The notes under the pieces were generated by a model. The model searched no databases. It was not told the DNA's origin and saw only the letters and a list, made by a program, of their open reading frames with translations. Source: Bradyrhizobium sp. AZCC 2176 (GTDB lineage Bacteria; Pseudomonadota; Alphaproteobacteria; Rhizobiales; Xanthobacteraceae). From it: a stretch of 64,000 nt of DNA. The stretch is from the NCBI RefSeq assembly GCF_036924645.1, contig NZ_JAZHRX010000001.1, positions 6,041,501 through 6,105,500 on the forward strand. Reading direction: 5' to 3'. Position numbers and translations under genes: made by a program. Below, piece after piece: positions 30,153-37,695 of this stretch; positions within the stretch are counted from its first letter, which is position 1, and each line of letters opens with the position of its first letter.

Positions 30153-31025
30153 ATGCGTATGGAATCCAACAAGGACTTTCTTGAATTCCACGGATTGCCA
30201 AAGGAAATCATCTTATCCCTCATCGATCGCGCTCGGTCGCTGGCGACAGCCTGGAACGATCGCGCCATGCCGCAGAGCTTGTCAGGCAAACGTGTTGCCC
30301 TCATTGCGGACGATAGCGGATGGAGAAATACGACTGCTTTTGATCTGGGCATACAGGCGATGGGTGGCCTCTGTGTCCAATCGCCAATCAAGTTCAACGT
30401 TCATGAAACTACGGCGGATCTAGCAAGGTACCTCGACAACTGGTTCGACATTTTGGTCATCCGCACCAAAGAGCTGTCGGTCTTGAAGGAACTCGCGTCA
30501 ATTGCCAAAGCCGCGGTGGTAAATGCGAGAACGAGGTCCAATCACCCGTGCGAAACACTTGGCGATCTCGCCTACATCCAAAGCAAGAGAGGAACGCTTG
30601 AGGGAATGAAAGTCGTCGGCGTCGCTCCGGACGCGAACATACTCCGATCATGGGTAGAAGCTTCCATCTCGATGCCTATCCAGGTGAGACAGGTCTATCC
30701 GGAAAACTGGCACGTCAAAGACGCCTCACTATCGGGTCCAAACTTCGCTGCGTGTACCGACTTCGCAGAGCTGTTGGATGCGGATGTGATCGTTACCGAC
30801 TCATGGCCAAGTGGGGCAAATGAAGAGCAGATGCTGGAATACCAGATCTCGACGTCTATTCTGGAGAAATGCCGTTCCGACGCCATTTTCCTACCCTGCC
30901 CGCCCGTTTCCAGGGGAAAGGAAGTCACCGCTGACGCAATGCGTCACCCAACTTGCCAGAGCGCCGCTGCAAAGGCTTATCTTCTGCACGCGCAAAACGC
31001 CCTGCTCGAATGGATCGTCACATAA
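30153..31025 (+). CDS. Divergent ornithine/aspartate carbamoyltransferase homologue
   Basis: The 290-residue protein follows the OTCase layout: an N-terminal carbamoyl-phosphate half, an NHPCETLGDLAYI motif near residue 128 (OTCase HPCQ.LADL), and a C-terminal LPCPPVSRGKEVTADAM near 248 (OTCase HCLPA.RG.EV). The phosphate-binding STRTR motif is changed: the aligned segment is ADDSGWRNTTAFDLG near residue 50. The ornithine-binding Cys of HCLP is shifted to LPCP. It may bind a different carbamoyl acceptor or have lost activity. No other arg or pyr gene is adjacent, and codon use is less GC-rich than neighbours. Start may be 30153 or 30159. Confidence 0.65.
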   Translation: MRMESNKDFLEFHGLPKEIILSLIDRARSLATAWNDRAMPQSLSGKRVALIADDSGWRNTTAFDLGIQAMGGLCVQSPIKFNVHETTADLARYLDNWFDILVIRTKELSVLKELASIAKAAVVNARTRSNHPCETLGDLAYIQSKRGTLEGMKVVGVAPDANILRSWVEASISMPIQVRQVYPENWHVKDASLSGPNFAACTDFAELLDADVIVTDSWPSGANEEQMLEYQISTSILEKCRSDAIFLPCPPVSRGKEVTADAMRHPTCQSAAAKAYLLHAQNALLEWIVT

Positions 31026-34134: not shown

Positions 34135-34728
34135 TCAGTCGCCTTTTCGAGCCACGACAAACAGCATCGTCGCCATCTTGTCGTCGAATCCGATGACTTC
34201 GCCGCTTTCGATCGACAACGAGTTCCAGTTCGCCGCCTCGGCATAAGTCGCGCGCAACCAGTCCGGCGACGGATAATTGTAGTAGCGATCGAGCGTGTCG
34301 CGGCCGTCGCCATCGCCTTCCTTGTAACTGGCGTAGAAGACGCCCGCAGGCTTCAGCGCGCGCCAGATCCGCGCAAGAACATCCGCAAGCTCTGTCCTCG
34401 GCACATGCAGCAGGCAGGCATTGGCCCACACGGCGTCATAGGCCTCGACCGCGTCGAGGTCATGAAACAGCAGCGTCTCGACCGTGCGGCCGAGATGCTT
34501 TGACGCGACATCAGCCATTTCCGGCGATCCGTCTGTCGCGCGCACCTCGAACCCGCGCGCCAGCATTTCCGCGGTGTCGCCGCCAGCGCCGCAGCCGAGT
34601 TCGAGAATGGACGCGCCCGGCGAAAGCTGTGCCAGAAACGCTATCAGCCGCGCCTGGCGCGAGGTGAATGTGCGCCTGGCGTAGGCCTCGGCGTTGCCGC
34701 GGTAGAACTGCAACGTCGCTTCGTCCAC
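34135..34728 (-). CDS. Class I SAM-dependent methyltransferase
   Basis: The 197-residue protein has motif I ILELGCGAGGDT near residue 41, a following acidic strand RATDGSPEM, and post-motifs LLFHDLD and GVFYASYKEG. The sequence is of the TehB/UbiE-like type; substrate unknown. It starts at GTG (34728) with GAGG seven bases upstream, 14 bases after the end of the argC gene, so it is the last gene of the paiB-argC-argC operon. Confidence 0.8.
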   Translation of the reverse strand: MDEATLQFYRGNAEAYARRTFTSRQARLIAFLAQLSPGASILELGCGAGGDTAEMLARGFEVRATDGSPEMADVASKHLGRTVETLLFHDLDAVEAYDAVWANACLLHVPRTELADVLARIWRALKPAGVFYASYKEGDGDGRDTLDRYYNYPSPDWLRATYAEAANWNSLSIESGEVIGFDDKMATMLFVVARKGD

Positions 34729-34742
34729 TGCGGCACCTCGTG

Positions 34743-35792
34743 TCAAGGGAACAGCGCGATCTGTTCCAGCCCTGCCGTCTCGGGAAGACCGAACATCAGG
34801 TTCATGTTCTGGATCGCCTGTCCAGCCGAACCCTTCACCAGATTGTCGAGCGTGGAAATGACGATCGCCCGGTTCTTGATGCGGTCGGCGACGACGCCGA
34901 TCTGCACATAGTTGGAACCGCGCACGTTCTGGGTCTGCGGCAGCACGCCTTTCCTGGTCACATGCACGAAGGGTTCGTTGGCGTAAGCCTTCTCCAGTGC
35001 GGTCCGCAGATCGTCCGGCGTCGCGCCGTTGAGCTTGACGTAAGACGTGCAGAGTTCGCCGCGCGCCATCGGGATAAGATGCGGCGTGAAGTTGACCGTC
35101 ACCGCCGAGCCGGCGGCGACGCCGATCTCCTGCTCGATCTCGGGCGCGTGCCGGTGGGTGCCGACCGAATAGGGCGACAGCCCCTCGCCCGCCTCGCTGA
35201 ACAGCGTGTTCTGCTTCAGTCCGCGCCCGGCGCCGGTGACACCCGATTTTGCATCGATGACGATGTCGTCGATGTCGATCAGTTTTGCCTTCGCCAGCGG
35301 CACCAGCGCGAGCAGCGCCGCGGTGGGATAGCAGCCGGGACAAGCGACCAGCCGCGCCGCAGCGATCTTCTCGCGATAGAACTCGGTCAGGCCATAGACG
35401 GCTTCGCCTTGCAGTTCGAGCGCCCGGTGCTCGTGGCCGTACCATTGCGCATAGGTGTCCTTGTTACGCAGCCGGAAGTCGGCCGACATGTCGAGAACCT
35501 TGATCTTCGGGTTGGCCTTGAGGACGGCGGCGATGATCTCCTGCGTGGTGCCGTGCGGCAGCCCGCAGAACACCGCATCGAGGCCGGTCCAGTCGACCTT
35601 TTCCCATTCCACCAGTTTTGGCAGGTCCAGCATGAAGAAATGCGGAAACACGTCGCCCATCGACTTTCCGGCATGGGTATTGGCGGTCAGAGCCGTGATC
35701 TCGGCATTCGGATGCCGCGCCAACAGGCGTACCGCGTCGGCCCCGGTGTAACCTGAGGCGCCGAGAATGCCGATATTCTTCTTCGAGCCCAT
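34743..35792 (-). CDS. argC: N-acetyl-gamma-glutamyl-phosphate reductase, long (type 1) form
   Basis: The 349-residue enzyme reduces N-acetylglutamyl-5-phosphate to the semialdehyde, third step of arginine synthesis. Motifs: GILGASGYTGADAVRLLARHP at the N-terminus, FCGLPHGTTQE near 87, the catalytic Cys in ACPGCYPTAALLAL near 150, GVTGAGRGLKQNT near 190 and HRHAPEIEQEIG near 214. The ATG at 35792 has AGGAA upstream and fits family length; another ATG at 35828 directly follows the previous stop. It sits next to a second, short-type argC in the same operon behind an Arg leader peptide. Confidence 0.93.
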   Translation of the reverse strand: MGSKKNIGILGASGYTGADAVRLLARHPNAEITALTANTHAGKSMGDVFPHFFMLDLPKLVEWEKVDWTGLDAVFCGLPHGTTQEIIAAVLKANPKIKVLDMSADFRLRNKDTYAQWYGHEHRALELQGEAVYGLTEFYREKIAAARLVACPGCYPTAALLALVPLAKAKLIDIDDIVIDAKSGVTGAGRGLKQNTLFSEAGEGLSPYSVGTHRHAPEIEQEIGVAAGSAVTVNFTPHLIPMARGELCTSYVKLNGATPDDLRTALEKAYANEPFVHVTRKGVLPQTQNVRGSNYVQIGVVADRIKNRAIVISTLDNLVKGSAGQAIQNMNLMFGLPETAGLEQIALFP

Positions 35793-35828
35793 CACGCGTT
35801 CCTTTCCGGCGTCATTTGCAGGCGTCAT

Positions 35829-36821
35829 CTATTTCTCGGCAACGCCCAGCATCAGCCGCATGTTCTGCACGGCGGCACCCGACGCGCCCTTGCCCAGATT
35901 GTCGAGCCGCGCGACCAGCACTGCCTGACGATGCTTGTCGCTGGCAAAGACGTAAAGCTCCAGTCTGTTGGTCTCGTTGAGCGCCTCCGGCTCGATCCGC
36001 CCGCCCTTGGCCGCCGCGTTCTCGATCGGCATCACCGCGACGTAGGTGCTGCCGGCGTAGCGCTTCGCCAGCGCGGCGTGCAAGTCGGCTCCGCTGGGTT
36101 TGCCCGTCAGCGTGTCGAGATGCAGCGGCACCGAGACCAGCATGCCCTGCCGGTAATTGCCGACCGACGGCACGAAGATCGGCCGCCGCGTCAGCTTTGA
36201 GTAAAGCTGCGTCTCCGGCAGATGCTTGTGCTCGAAGCCGAGGCCATACAATTCGAAGGACGGCGCGCTGCCATCCTCAAAACTCGCGATCATCGACTTG
36301 CCGCCGCCCGAATAGCCGCTGACCGCGTTGATGGTGACCGGATAGTCCGCAGGCATGAGACCCGCATCGACCAGCGGCCGCAGCAACGCAATCCCGCCGG
36401 TCGGATAGCAGCCGGGATTCGAAACCTTGCGCGCGCTCCGGATCTTGTCGGCCTGGTCCGGCGTGAGCTCGGGAAAGCCGTACGTCCAGTCGCTCGCCAC
36501 TCGAAAAGCCGTCGACGCGTCGAGCACCTTGGGCGCCGAAGCGCCCATGCTGTCGATCAGGGCAACGGTTTCCTTGGCGGCATCGTCAGGCAGGCAGAGG
36601 ATGACGAGATCGACCTCCTCCATCAGCGCGCGCTTGACGCCGGCATCCTTGCGCTTCTCCTCAGCGATGCTCTTCACGACGACGCCGTTCTGCAGCCGCA
36701 GGCGTTCCTGAATGCCGAGCCCCGTCGTTCCGGACGCGCCGTCAACGAACACGGCGGGCCTGGTCGCGGCGTCGGCGGTCTTGCTGCCGGTCTTGGGCTG
36801 CTGGCCATCGGTGAGGGTCAT
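35829..36821 (-). CDS. argC: N-acetyl-gamma-glutamyl-phosphate reductase, short (type 2) form
   Basis: The 330-residue protein belongs to the other AGPR family (TIGR01851-type). Motifs: VFVDGASGTTGLGIQERL near residue 24, ILCLPDDAAKETV near 74, the catalytic Cys in VSNPGCYPTGGIALL near 132, and AVSGYSGGGKSMI near 164. It catalyses the same step as the neighbouring long-form ArgC but is not closely similar in sequence. The ATG overlaps the paiB-like stop by four bases (ATGA). Having both types in one operon is unusual. Confidence 0.92.
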   Translation of the reverse strand: MTLTDGQQPKTGSKTADAATRPAVFVDGASGTTGLGIQERLRLQNGVVVKSIAEEKRKDAGVKRALMEEVDLVILCLPDDAAKETVALIDSMGASAPKVLDASTAFRVASDWTYGFPELTPDQADKIRSARKVSNPGCYPTGGIALLRPLVDAGLMPADYPVTINAVSGYSGGGKSMIASFEDGSAPSFELYGLGFEHKHLPETQLYSKLTRRPIFVPSVGNYRQGMLVSVPLHLDTLTGKPSGADLHAALAKRYAGSTYVAVMPIENAAAKGGRIEPEALNETNRLELYVFASDKHRQAVLVARLDNLGKGASGAAVQNMRLMLGVAEK

Positions 36822-37486
36822 GGCTCGCTCCTCTCGAGCTGGTTGGTTTCGTCGGCAAAGGCCTGCGGCCGCGCCTCTTTCATCAAATGCGCAATCTGCT
36901 GCGCGCCGGCATCGGCCCGCGCGGCAAGCGACCCTGCAACCGCCGCATAGTCGGTCTCGGATTTGTGCTGGTTCAGCTTGAAGCTGCCCTCGACCTCTTC
37001 AACCGTCATCTCAAGGCCCACGATCGCTTTCTTCATCGCTTCCAGCCGCCCGGCTGTCATCTTCGACGACAGCCACGGCTTTTTCGGCAACAGCCGCGCT
37101 TCGAACTTGGCGCTGAGCGCCTCGATCTGCGCGGCGAGTTCGTCGTCGGACATCGCCCGCACCGGGCCCGTCAGATGTACCGCCTGATAGAGCCAGGTCG
37201 GCACCTGGTCTGGCGAGACGTACCAGTCCGGCGACACATAGGCATCCGCGCCAGTGACGGCCAGCAGCCACGACGTCGTCCCGTCCGCGAGCTTTACCAG
37301 CGGATTGTGACGTGCAACGTGAAAGGCCGCGCGCGGCGTGCCGTCATTGGCCGAAGTCAGATAGAACGGCAGCGACGAGGCGACCGGCTTGTTGCCGTCC
37401 CATGCGCAGGCCAGCCCAAATCCGCGCGCTTCCGCGAACGCCAGGCTCGCGGCGCGGTCGGACTTGAACGGTGGAGGCGTATACAT
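36818..37486 (-). CDS. FMN-binding PaiB-family protein
   Basis: The 222-residue protein begins MYTPPPFKSDRAASLAFAEARGFGLA and contains ASSLPFYL, HVARHNPLV and PDWYVSPDQVPTWLYQAVHLTG, all marks of the PaiB/FMN-binding split-barrel family. Bacillus PaiB was described as a negative regulator of sporulation and protease genes; biochemical roles are unclear. It is first in the operon with the two argC genes, with AGGAG seven bases before the ATG and an Arg attenuator upstream. A link to arginine or polyamine metabolism is inferred from that context. Confidence 0.85.
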   Translation of the reverse strand: MYTPPPFKSDRAASLAFAEARGFGLACAWDGNKPVASSLPFYLTSANDGTPRAAFHVARHNPLVKLADGTTSWLLAVTGADAYVSPDWYVSPDQVPTWLYQAVHLTGPVRAMSDDELAAQIEALSAKFEARLLPKKPWLSSKMTAGRLEAMKKAIVGLEMTVEEVEGSFKLNQHKSETDYAAVAGSLAARADAGAQQIAHLMKEARPQAFADETNQLERSEP

Positions 37487-37537
37487 CTCAAACTCCTGCT
37501 TGACGTAGGAGCCGCCAGTTCAGACCGCGTTTTCTGG

Positions 37538-37571
37538 AAAAGGAAGAAGCCGCGGGACCCGATCCGGCGGC
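37538..37571 (-). terminator. Attenuator terminator before paiB-argC-argC
   Basis: On the minus strand GCCGC (37571-37567) pairs with GCGGC (37553-37549), then one C/C mismatch and a GGA/TCC inner stem with a five-base loop; TTCTTCCTTTT follows. It is weaker than the aromatic one but lies between the leader stop and the paiB start. Its 5' arm is also part of the competing antiterminator segment. Confidence 0.6.
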
Positions 37572-37630
37572 AGGGGCGACGATCTCAAACGCAGACGTCC
37601 GCCCATACCGCTGACATGCGGCGGCGGCGA
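37567..37630 (-). promoter_or_regulatory. Arginine attenuator: competing RNA pairings
   Basis: Segment 1, the end of the Arg codon run (37622-37618, GCCGC), can pair with segment 2 (37611-37607, GCGGT) around a six-base loop. Segment 2 extended (37611-37602, GCGGTATGGG) can instead pair with segment 3 (37576-37567, CCCCTGCCGC), nine of ten positions, which removes the 5' arm of the terminator. A ribosome halted on the Arg codons would favour the second pairing and so read-through. Confidence 0.65.
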
Positions 37631-37659
37631 GCGATGGTCATGGTCGCGGCGATAGTCAT
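37585..37659 (-). CDS. Arg-rich leader peptide (24 aa) of the argC operon
   Basis: The frame reads MTIAATMTIA, then four consecutive CGC Arg codons (37629-37618), then MSAVWADVCV and TGA. The ATG lies exactly seven bases after a predicted -10 element, so the message should begin at the ATG, as for the aromatic leader at 4660. A terminator and then paiB, argC and argC follow. I take it as a sensor of charged tRNA-Arg. An internal ATG (37641) could also start translation. Confidence 0.7.
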   Translation of the reverse strand: MTIAATMTIARRRRMSAVWADVCV

Positions 37660-37666
37660 GGGCGCG

Positions 37667-37695
37667 GCTATAAGGCCGCGCCCGCCACACGTCAA
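37667..37695 (-). promoter_or_regulatory. Predicted sigma70-type promoter of the Arg leader operon
   Basis: Reading the minus strand: TTGACG (37695-37690, five of six), a 17-base spacer, and TATAGC (37672-37667, four of six). The leader ATG at 37659 starts seven bases after the -10 element, giving a leaderless transcript. Spacing and layout equal those of the aromatic leader promoter. Confidence 0.7.

Follow-up and report, generated by a model that had tools for sequence, protein, structure and literature searches.

A predicted ribosome-mediated attenuator with arginine control codons ahead of argC in Bradyrhizobium and its relatives

Described attenuators and arginine control

The attenuators of the enteric trp, his and pheA genes carry their control codons in arm 1 of the leader RNA, with arms 2 and 3 pairing as the antiterminator and arms 3 and 4 as the terminator, and their leaders begin behind a ribosome-binding site. 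The element described here, which lies ahead of argC in Bradyrhizobium, follows the same four-arm logic, whereas the amino acids of the enteric systems are different ones. Short upstream frames that respond to arginine are known from the fungal arginine attenuator peptide, which acts on translation, and reportedly from the bacterial speF leader with its Arg codons; unlike the gene behind the arginine leader, speF is a polyamine gene.

The passages of PMC7298713 and PMC10117765 on the trpL RNA of Sinorhizobium meliloti place its 5' end on the leader ATG, which makes this RNA leaderless. The rhizobial trp attenuator (trpL, rnTrpL, peTrpL) resembles the arginine leader, as we interpret it, in being a ribosome-dependent and leaderless transcription attenuator from the same order, and differs from it in its control codons, which are Trp, and its genes, which are trpE(G). 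Roles in trans of its RNA and peptide are reported, while none is known for the arginine leader. The part of PMC8632094 on the uORFC-8-2 motif, found before cysS in Rhodobacterales, likewise presents a predicted alphaproteobacterial upstream-frame attenuator that senses its own amino acid, but its codons are Cys, its gene is that of a tRNA synthetase and its order is another.

In ArgR-controlled arg genes arginine synthesis also follows arginine status; ArgR, in contrast to an attenuator, is a DNA-binding repressor. According to the relevant section of PMC5343134, a paper in which enteric-type attenuators of trp, his and pheA receive a passing mention, ArgR is conserved in gammaproteobacteria and absent in other proteobacterial classes. 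The ArgR profile (PF01316) exceeded its cut-off in none of the 31 genomes that we searched, with one sub-threshold match (G010); the same search in 14 control genomes detected ArgR in nine, in eight of them over the cut-off. Within 500 nt upstream of argG, argF and argJ of the source genome we found no comparable leader, and a GTG frame of 44 codons, some of them Arg, that lies 313 nt ahead of argJ was judged by eye not to be one.

We consider it highly probable that the element is a ribosome-mediated transcription attenuator, with Arg control codons and a leaderless leader mRNA, that controls argC. For alphaproteobacteria without ArgR, such an attenuator would offer a concrete and testable answer to how arginine synthesis is adjusted, for which we found no earlier answer. 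The group concerned is large and includes Bradyrhizobium and Afipia, and ribosome-mediated attenuation would thereby be extended to arginine. Our search, which covered the open-access literature, yielded no description of an arginine attenuator of this kind.

Architecture of the locus

The features of the locus are given below with their positions in the window, by which we mean the whole stretch of 64,000 nucleotides that was analysed.

37690..37695, minus strand: -35 hexamer TTGACG; TTGAC at 90 of 90 family loci, a count that includes two TTGCGC accepted by the script
37667..37672, minus strand: -10 hexamer TATAGC, 7 bases 5' of the leader ATG
37585..37659, minus strand: leader ORF MTIAATMTIARRRRMSAVWADVCV, 24 codons plus stop
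37618..37629, minus strand: four CGC Arg codons, the putative control codons and arm 1
37596..37611, minus strand: arm 2, partner of arm 1 or arm 3
37567..37584, minus strand: arm 3 as antiterminator partner of arm 2, from pairing tests and folds
37561..37572, minus strand: arm 3 as 5' side of the predicted terminator and partner of arm 4, TGCCGCCGGATC, from alignment and sequence
37549..37556, minus strand: arm 4, CCCGCGGC, the 3' strand of the predicted terminator, from alignment and sequence
37536..37548, minus strand: T-rich tract TTCTTCCTTTTCC behind the hairpin, from sequence; weak in the window
37507..37521, minus strand: segment 5, GAACTGGCGGCTCCT, shortly before the paiB ribosome-binding site; arm 3 might pair with it as a third partner
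37493..37497, minus strand: AGGAG, ribosome-binding site of paiB; AGGAG in 30 of 30 genus sequences
36818..37486, minus strand: paiB-like gene (FMN_bind_2, PF04299), by profile match
35829..36821, minus strand: argC type 2 (TIGR01851), by profile match
34743..35828, minus strand: argC type 1 (TIGR01850), by profile match

An earlier sequence-only reading of this DNA had proposed that arginine synthesis is controlled here by ribosome-mediated attenuation. Its promoter, with a spacer of 17 nt between TTGACG and TATAGC, is found exactly where it was placed, as are the seven bases that separate it from the ATG at 37659 and the 24-codon frame with four successive Arg codons, whose stop lies at 37587-37585. 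The hairpin and T-rich run that it described are also present, with an imperfect T tract (8 T of 13). The feature of an intrinsic terminator, that is, the 3:4 hairpin followed by a T run, is thus weak in the window as far as the T tract is concerned, and clear at locus L080 and in all 12 genomes of a second family, f20, that is treated below. The pairing in nine of ten positions between 37611-37602 and 37576-37567 holds, but it covers only part of the 2:3 duplex, which in the fold joins 37611-37596 with 37584-37567. Together the four arms define mutually exclusive pairings, all of which cannot form at once.

The order of genes behind the leader is paiB, argC type 2 and argC type 1. The first two overlap by 4 nt and argC type 1 begins directly after argC type 2. 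The two arginine-biosynthesis reductases recognized in the earlier reading correspond to the TIGR01851 and TIGR01850 matches, so the window holds adjacent N-acetyl-gamma-glutamyl-phosphate reductases of two different classes; in relatives, one or both argC classes stand behind the leader, in either order. As to a promoter located downstream of the leader, which had been named as evidence against the proposal, a generic promoter and terminator scan found none, but the same scan reported neither the leader's own promoter nor its predicted terminator.

Conservation of the leader and its association with argC

A close paiB homologue (73-95% identity) occurs in all 35 relatives from the same genus. 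Thirty loci obtained from 36 genomes, the source genome included, form our genus set, and every one of them has the promoter and the Arg-run leader (e.g. MINAATILFARRRRRSLAVWAVDRV). A first covariance model, built from the alignment of these loci (A1), matched 143 of 296 family genomes and 25 of 47 genera; 60 of these matches, taken from high to low score with all 25 genera covered, were added to the 30 genus loci for the counts that follow.

The -35/-10 pair is present at 90 of 90 loci, with a spacer of 17 nt in 88 and 18 nt in two, and is followed 6-9 nt downstream of the -10 by the leader ATG in each case; as a control, the promoter motif without the ATG condition was sought in the next 60 nt upstream and occurred at 0 of 90 loci. 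The frame has 21-26 codons throughout. Its longest Arg run is 4 or 5 in 72 loci, 3 in 13, 2 in four and 1 in one, so that the run of Arg codons, whose presence in relatives had been suggested as a check, is kept with a length of at least 3 in 85 of the 90 leaders. Arg makes up 21.6% of the leader residues at these loci versus 4.8% in the PaiB and ArgC proteins of the window. A codon tally of 217 CGC, 32 other Arg and 21 non-Arg codons has anchor slips in it and was set aside.

With the ATG only 6-9 nt behind the -10, transcription should start at or beside it, and the leader frame is therefore probably the start of a leaderless mRNA, as judged from the promoter spacing. Leaderless mRNAs are reported for Bradyrhizobium japonicum in the part of PMC4842269 on transcription starts, which counts 320 start sites 0-10 nt upstream of start codons.

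Of the 60 family loci, 59 have argC within the stretch that was fetched; at the last one, where this stretch is short, it holds paiB only. The gene contents of the stretches fetched were ArgC1 alone (23), PaiB-ArgC2 (18), PaiB-ArgC1 (17), PaiB-ArgC2-ArgC1 (1) and PaiB alone (1). The 23 loci that have no paiB match within the fetched stretch keep the leader in front of argC. In 22 of them the distance from the start of the leader to the first argC alignment is 151-253 nt, and in the other (L077) it is 618 nt. The leader therefore follows argC and not paiB, and these gene neighbourhoods tie it to arginine synthesis rather than to PaiB. It has remained with argC whether or not paiB stands between them and whether the enzyme is of type 1 or type 2, so a single putative RNA switch has been retained across exchanges of the genes that it precedes.

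A second covariance model, R2, built from 74 sequences, matched 185 of 296 family genomes and 35 of 47 genera, numbers that include its own training sequences. For this reason ten matches outside the training set were read, and all ten have an Arg-run leader with argC type 1 directly behind it; at one locus (L310) the ATG, called by eye, lies 15 nt upstream of the model start. Three loci of genus g49 (L307, L312 and L313, where the leader begins at position 201 of the oriented stretch) have a leader cut to 16 codons, with its stop just 5' of arm 2, as in f20. In three family genomes (G060, G081 and G102) a screen for Arg-run ORFs upstream of argC showed no leader; G060 has a weak R2 match elsewhere in the genome.

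When R2 was run against 397 genomes of the order it gave 20 matches, 17 from the same family and three from outside it. Two of the latter are real and both belong to family f20; the third (L141) looks false. A diverged version of the element is present in 12 of 12 f20 genomes, with TTGACA, a 16-codon leader (e.g. MNTISTSTRRRSLILR), a hairpin with a long T run, and argC. At least three successive Arg residues occur in 10 of these leaders and RxRR in the other two. The nucleotide sequence differs from that of the Bradyrhizobium element while the architecture is identical. We also screened 30 genomes for Arg-run ORFs within 420 nt upstream of an argC type 1 match (three of these loci, L156, L162 and L164, may be off register). 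Several ORFs were flagged, and the arrangement of promoter, leader and argC was seen in only three genomes, all of f20; it was not seen in the other families among the 30, in a set where 7 of the 30 argC matches are weak and fall short of the gene start.

A scan of named genomes for arms 2-3-4 returned at least 118 stretches, 80 of which were examined. Among the stretches listed, 52 of 80 have an Arg-run leader and 51 the promoter motif. Bradyrhizobium and Afipia account for these 52 together with related MAGs and a single record that bears the name Frankia, and the genes found within 2.5 kb in the listed stretches are PaiB-ArgC2 (24), PaiB-ArgC2-ArgC1 (9), PaiB-ArgC1 (8), PaiB alone (5), PaiB-ArgC1-ArgC2 (4) and ArgC1 (2). 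No Arg-run leader was found in the other 28 of the 80 listed, which are mostly from other phyla or classes and include L201, a stretch that ends beside the match. The record labelled Frankia sp. RB7 (L210, JAUEPE010000003.1) has a Bradyrhizobium-type leader with paiB-argC and is probably mislabelled.

Rfam 15, with its riboswitch and T-box families, gave 0 matches at the gathering score in the window. At five related loci the single match was sub-threshold, to MIR8622 (30 bits versus 197), at L001, where it overlaps a GC-rich inverted-repeat-like region upstream of the leader promoter.

Competing pairings, predicted ribosome states and other readings

The pairings between arms were evaluated in the alignment of 74 sequences with fixed columns and 500 shuffles. 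Arms 1 and 2 pair in 91.0% of the cells, with a covariation score reached by 0 of 500 shuffles. Arms 3 and 4 pair in 86.4%, and here covariation score and paired cells were both reached by 0 of 500 shuffles, while pairs with two-sided changes were reached by 356 and pair types by 364, so that two of the five measures are no better than shuffles. For arms 2 and 3, which pair in 82.5% of the cells, the covariation score was reached by 91 and the paired cells by 42 of the 500 shuffles. Because the register of 2:3 varies between clades, we used a test that does not depend on columns, in which the duplex energy of a locus's own arms is compared with that of arms exchanged between genera (one sequence per genus, 25 genera). 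Own arms were better by 1.99 kcal/mol for 2:3 (mean permutation p 0.000 to three decimals), by 0.88 kcal/mol for 3:4 (p 0.006) and by 0.60 kcal/mol for 1:2 (p 0.040).

The effect of a translating ribosome was predicted for the 74 leaders by hiding the RNA beneath it from folding. Before arm 4 has been made, 2:3 is predicted to form, with 6 or more expected pairs, in all 74 leaders when the ribosome is on the first Arg codon, in 73 when it is on the second and in 72 when it is on the third. If the codons behind the Arg run are shuffled, the first of these values falls to 43 of 74. A ribosome placed at the stop codon gives 3:4 in all 74, and without any ribosome 3:4 forms in 60. For the window leader, a stalled ribosome yields 15.8 expected pairs of 2:3, and one at the stop codon 8.0 of 3:4; when untranslated this leader leans to read-through, with 2:3 at 0.86 in the ensemble, although its minimum-energy fold is 1:2 plus 3:4. 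The alternative pairing, whose loss in relatives the earlier reading had named as a refutation, is thus also kept there. When arm 4 is included and full equilibrium is assumed, 3:4 stays ahead in 33 of 74 leaders in spite of a ribosome on the first Arg codon; of the 12 f20 leaders only four have 2:3 ahead, yet in 12 of 12 it forms before arm 4. The switch must therefore depend on 2:3 being in place before arm 4.

Three features of the trp type come together here: a frame with an Arg run behind its own promoter, genes for synthesis of the same amino acid behind it, and exclusive pairings that a ribosome is predicted to switch. By analogy, the arginine attenuator most likely works like that of trp. 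Transcription would start at or beside the leader ATG, and the leader mRNA would be leaderless. Under a shortage of arginyl-tRNA, the ribosome would wait on the Arg run and cover arm 1, so that 2:3 pairs, the 3:4 terminator is prevented and paiB-argC is transcribed; when arginyl-tRNA is plentiful, the ribosome would reach the stop codon and block arm 2, whereupon the 3:4 terminator would form and transcription stop. The conservation of the Arg run and of the pairings, the state folds and the link to argC support the attenuation that was proposed from the window alone.

One other reading is that the Arg-rich nascent peptide stalls the ribosome on a different signal, such as a drug, a polyamine or free arginine, and that the RNA switch reads this stall. 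It would account for the conservation of leader residues beyond the Arg run, which form a MINAATI-like N-terminal and an AVWAxxxV-like C-terminal stretch. The latter, however, is encoded by arm 2, and its conservation can therefore be explained by RNA pairing. Moreover, the f20 leader is shorter and has little in common with the family leader beyond the Arg run, and the gene behind the leader is argC throughout, all of which makes stalling by the peptide improbable in our judgement.

Even less probable is that the leader controls translation of the first gene and not transcription, by opening or closing the ribosome-binding site, partly through pairing of arm 3 with segment 5. In a fold of 178 nt, from the leader up to paiB, arm 3 pairs with segment 5 instead, which is a point against the attenuator model. 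All 30 Bradyrhizobium sequences keep this 3:5 pairing, in which the only changes are one-sided, and in the swap test (82 loci, 21 genera) own partners are 1.02 kcal/mol better (mean p 0.001). Against this, the two ribosome states hardly differ in how accessible the ribosome-binding site is predicted to be, access being higher when stalled in 28 and lower in 19 of the 82 loci, and the hairpin is followed by a long T run in 12 of 12 f20 genomes. Nor do we claim that 3:5 adds a further layer of control at the ribosome-binding site, because the predicted shift in access is inconsistent, though the pairing itself is kept.

The idea that both the Arg run and the pairings arose by chance in GC-rich DNA deserves almost no credence. 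CGC repeats and GC-rich pairings are indeed easily obtained, and the window leader taken singly folds no better than its composition would lead one to expect (z -1.22, with 26 of 200 shuffles doing equally well), but the idea is contradicted by the conservation of frame, promoter spacing, Arg run and arms across many genera and again, with a different sequence, in f20.

If the leader is an attenuator of transcription, the terminated leaderless RNA (about 110-125 nt) and the Arg-rich peptide might also act in trans, as do rnTrpL and peTrpL of Sinorhizobium, giving a signal of arginine status beyond argC, with segment 5 offering arm 3 a third state after read-through. We regard this extension, drawn by analogy, as rather unlikely though worth stating.

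Some further features of the window lie close to the locus. A GC-rich, inverted-repeat-like stretch, noticed by eye, occupies 37825-37725 and separates the leader promoter from the metallo-hydrolase gene upstream. Behind argC type 1, on the same strand, a methyltransferase-domain frame (34135-34740, minus strand) could share the transcript. On the plus strand, at 30171-31019 (G000:C1:6071671-6072519), there is a carbamoyltransferase-like gene whose match, at 120.7 bits, is below the argF cut-off.
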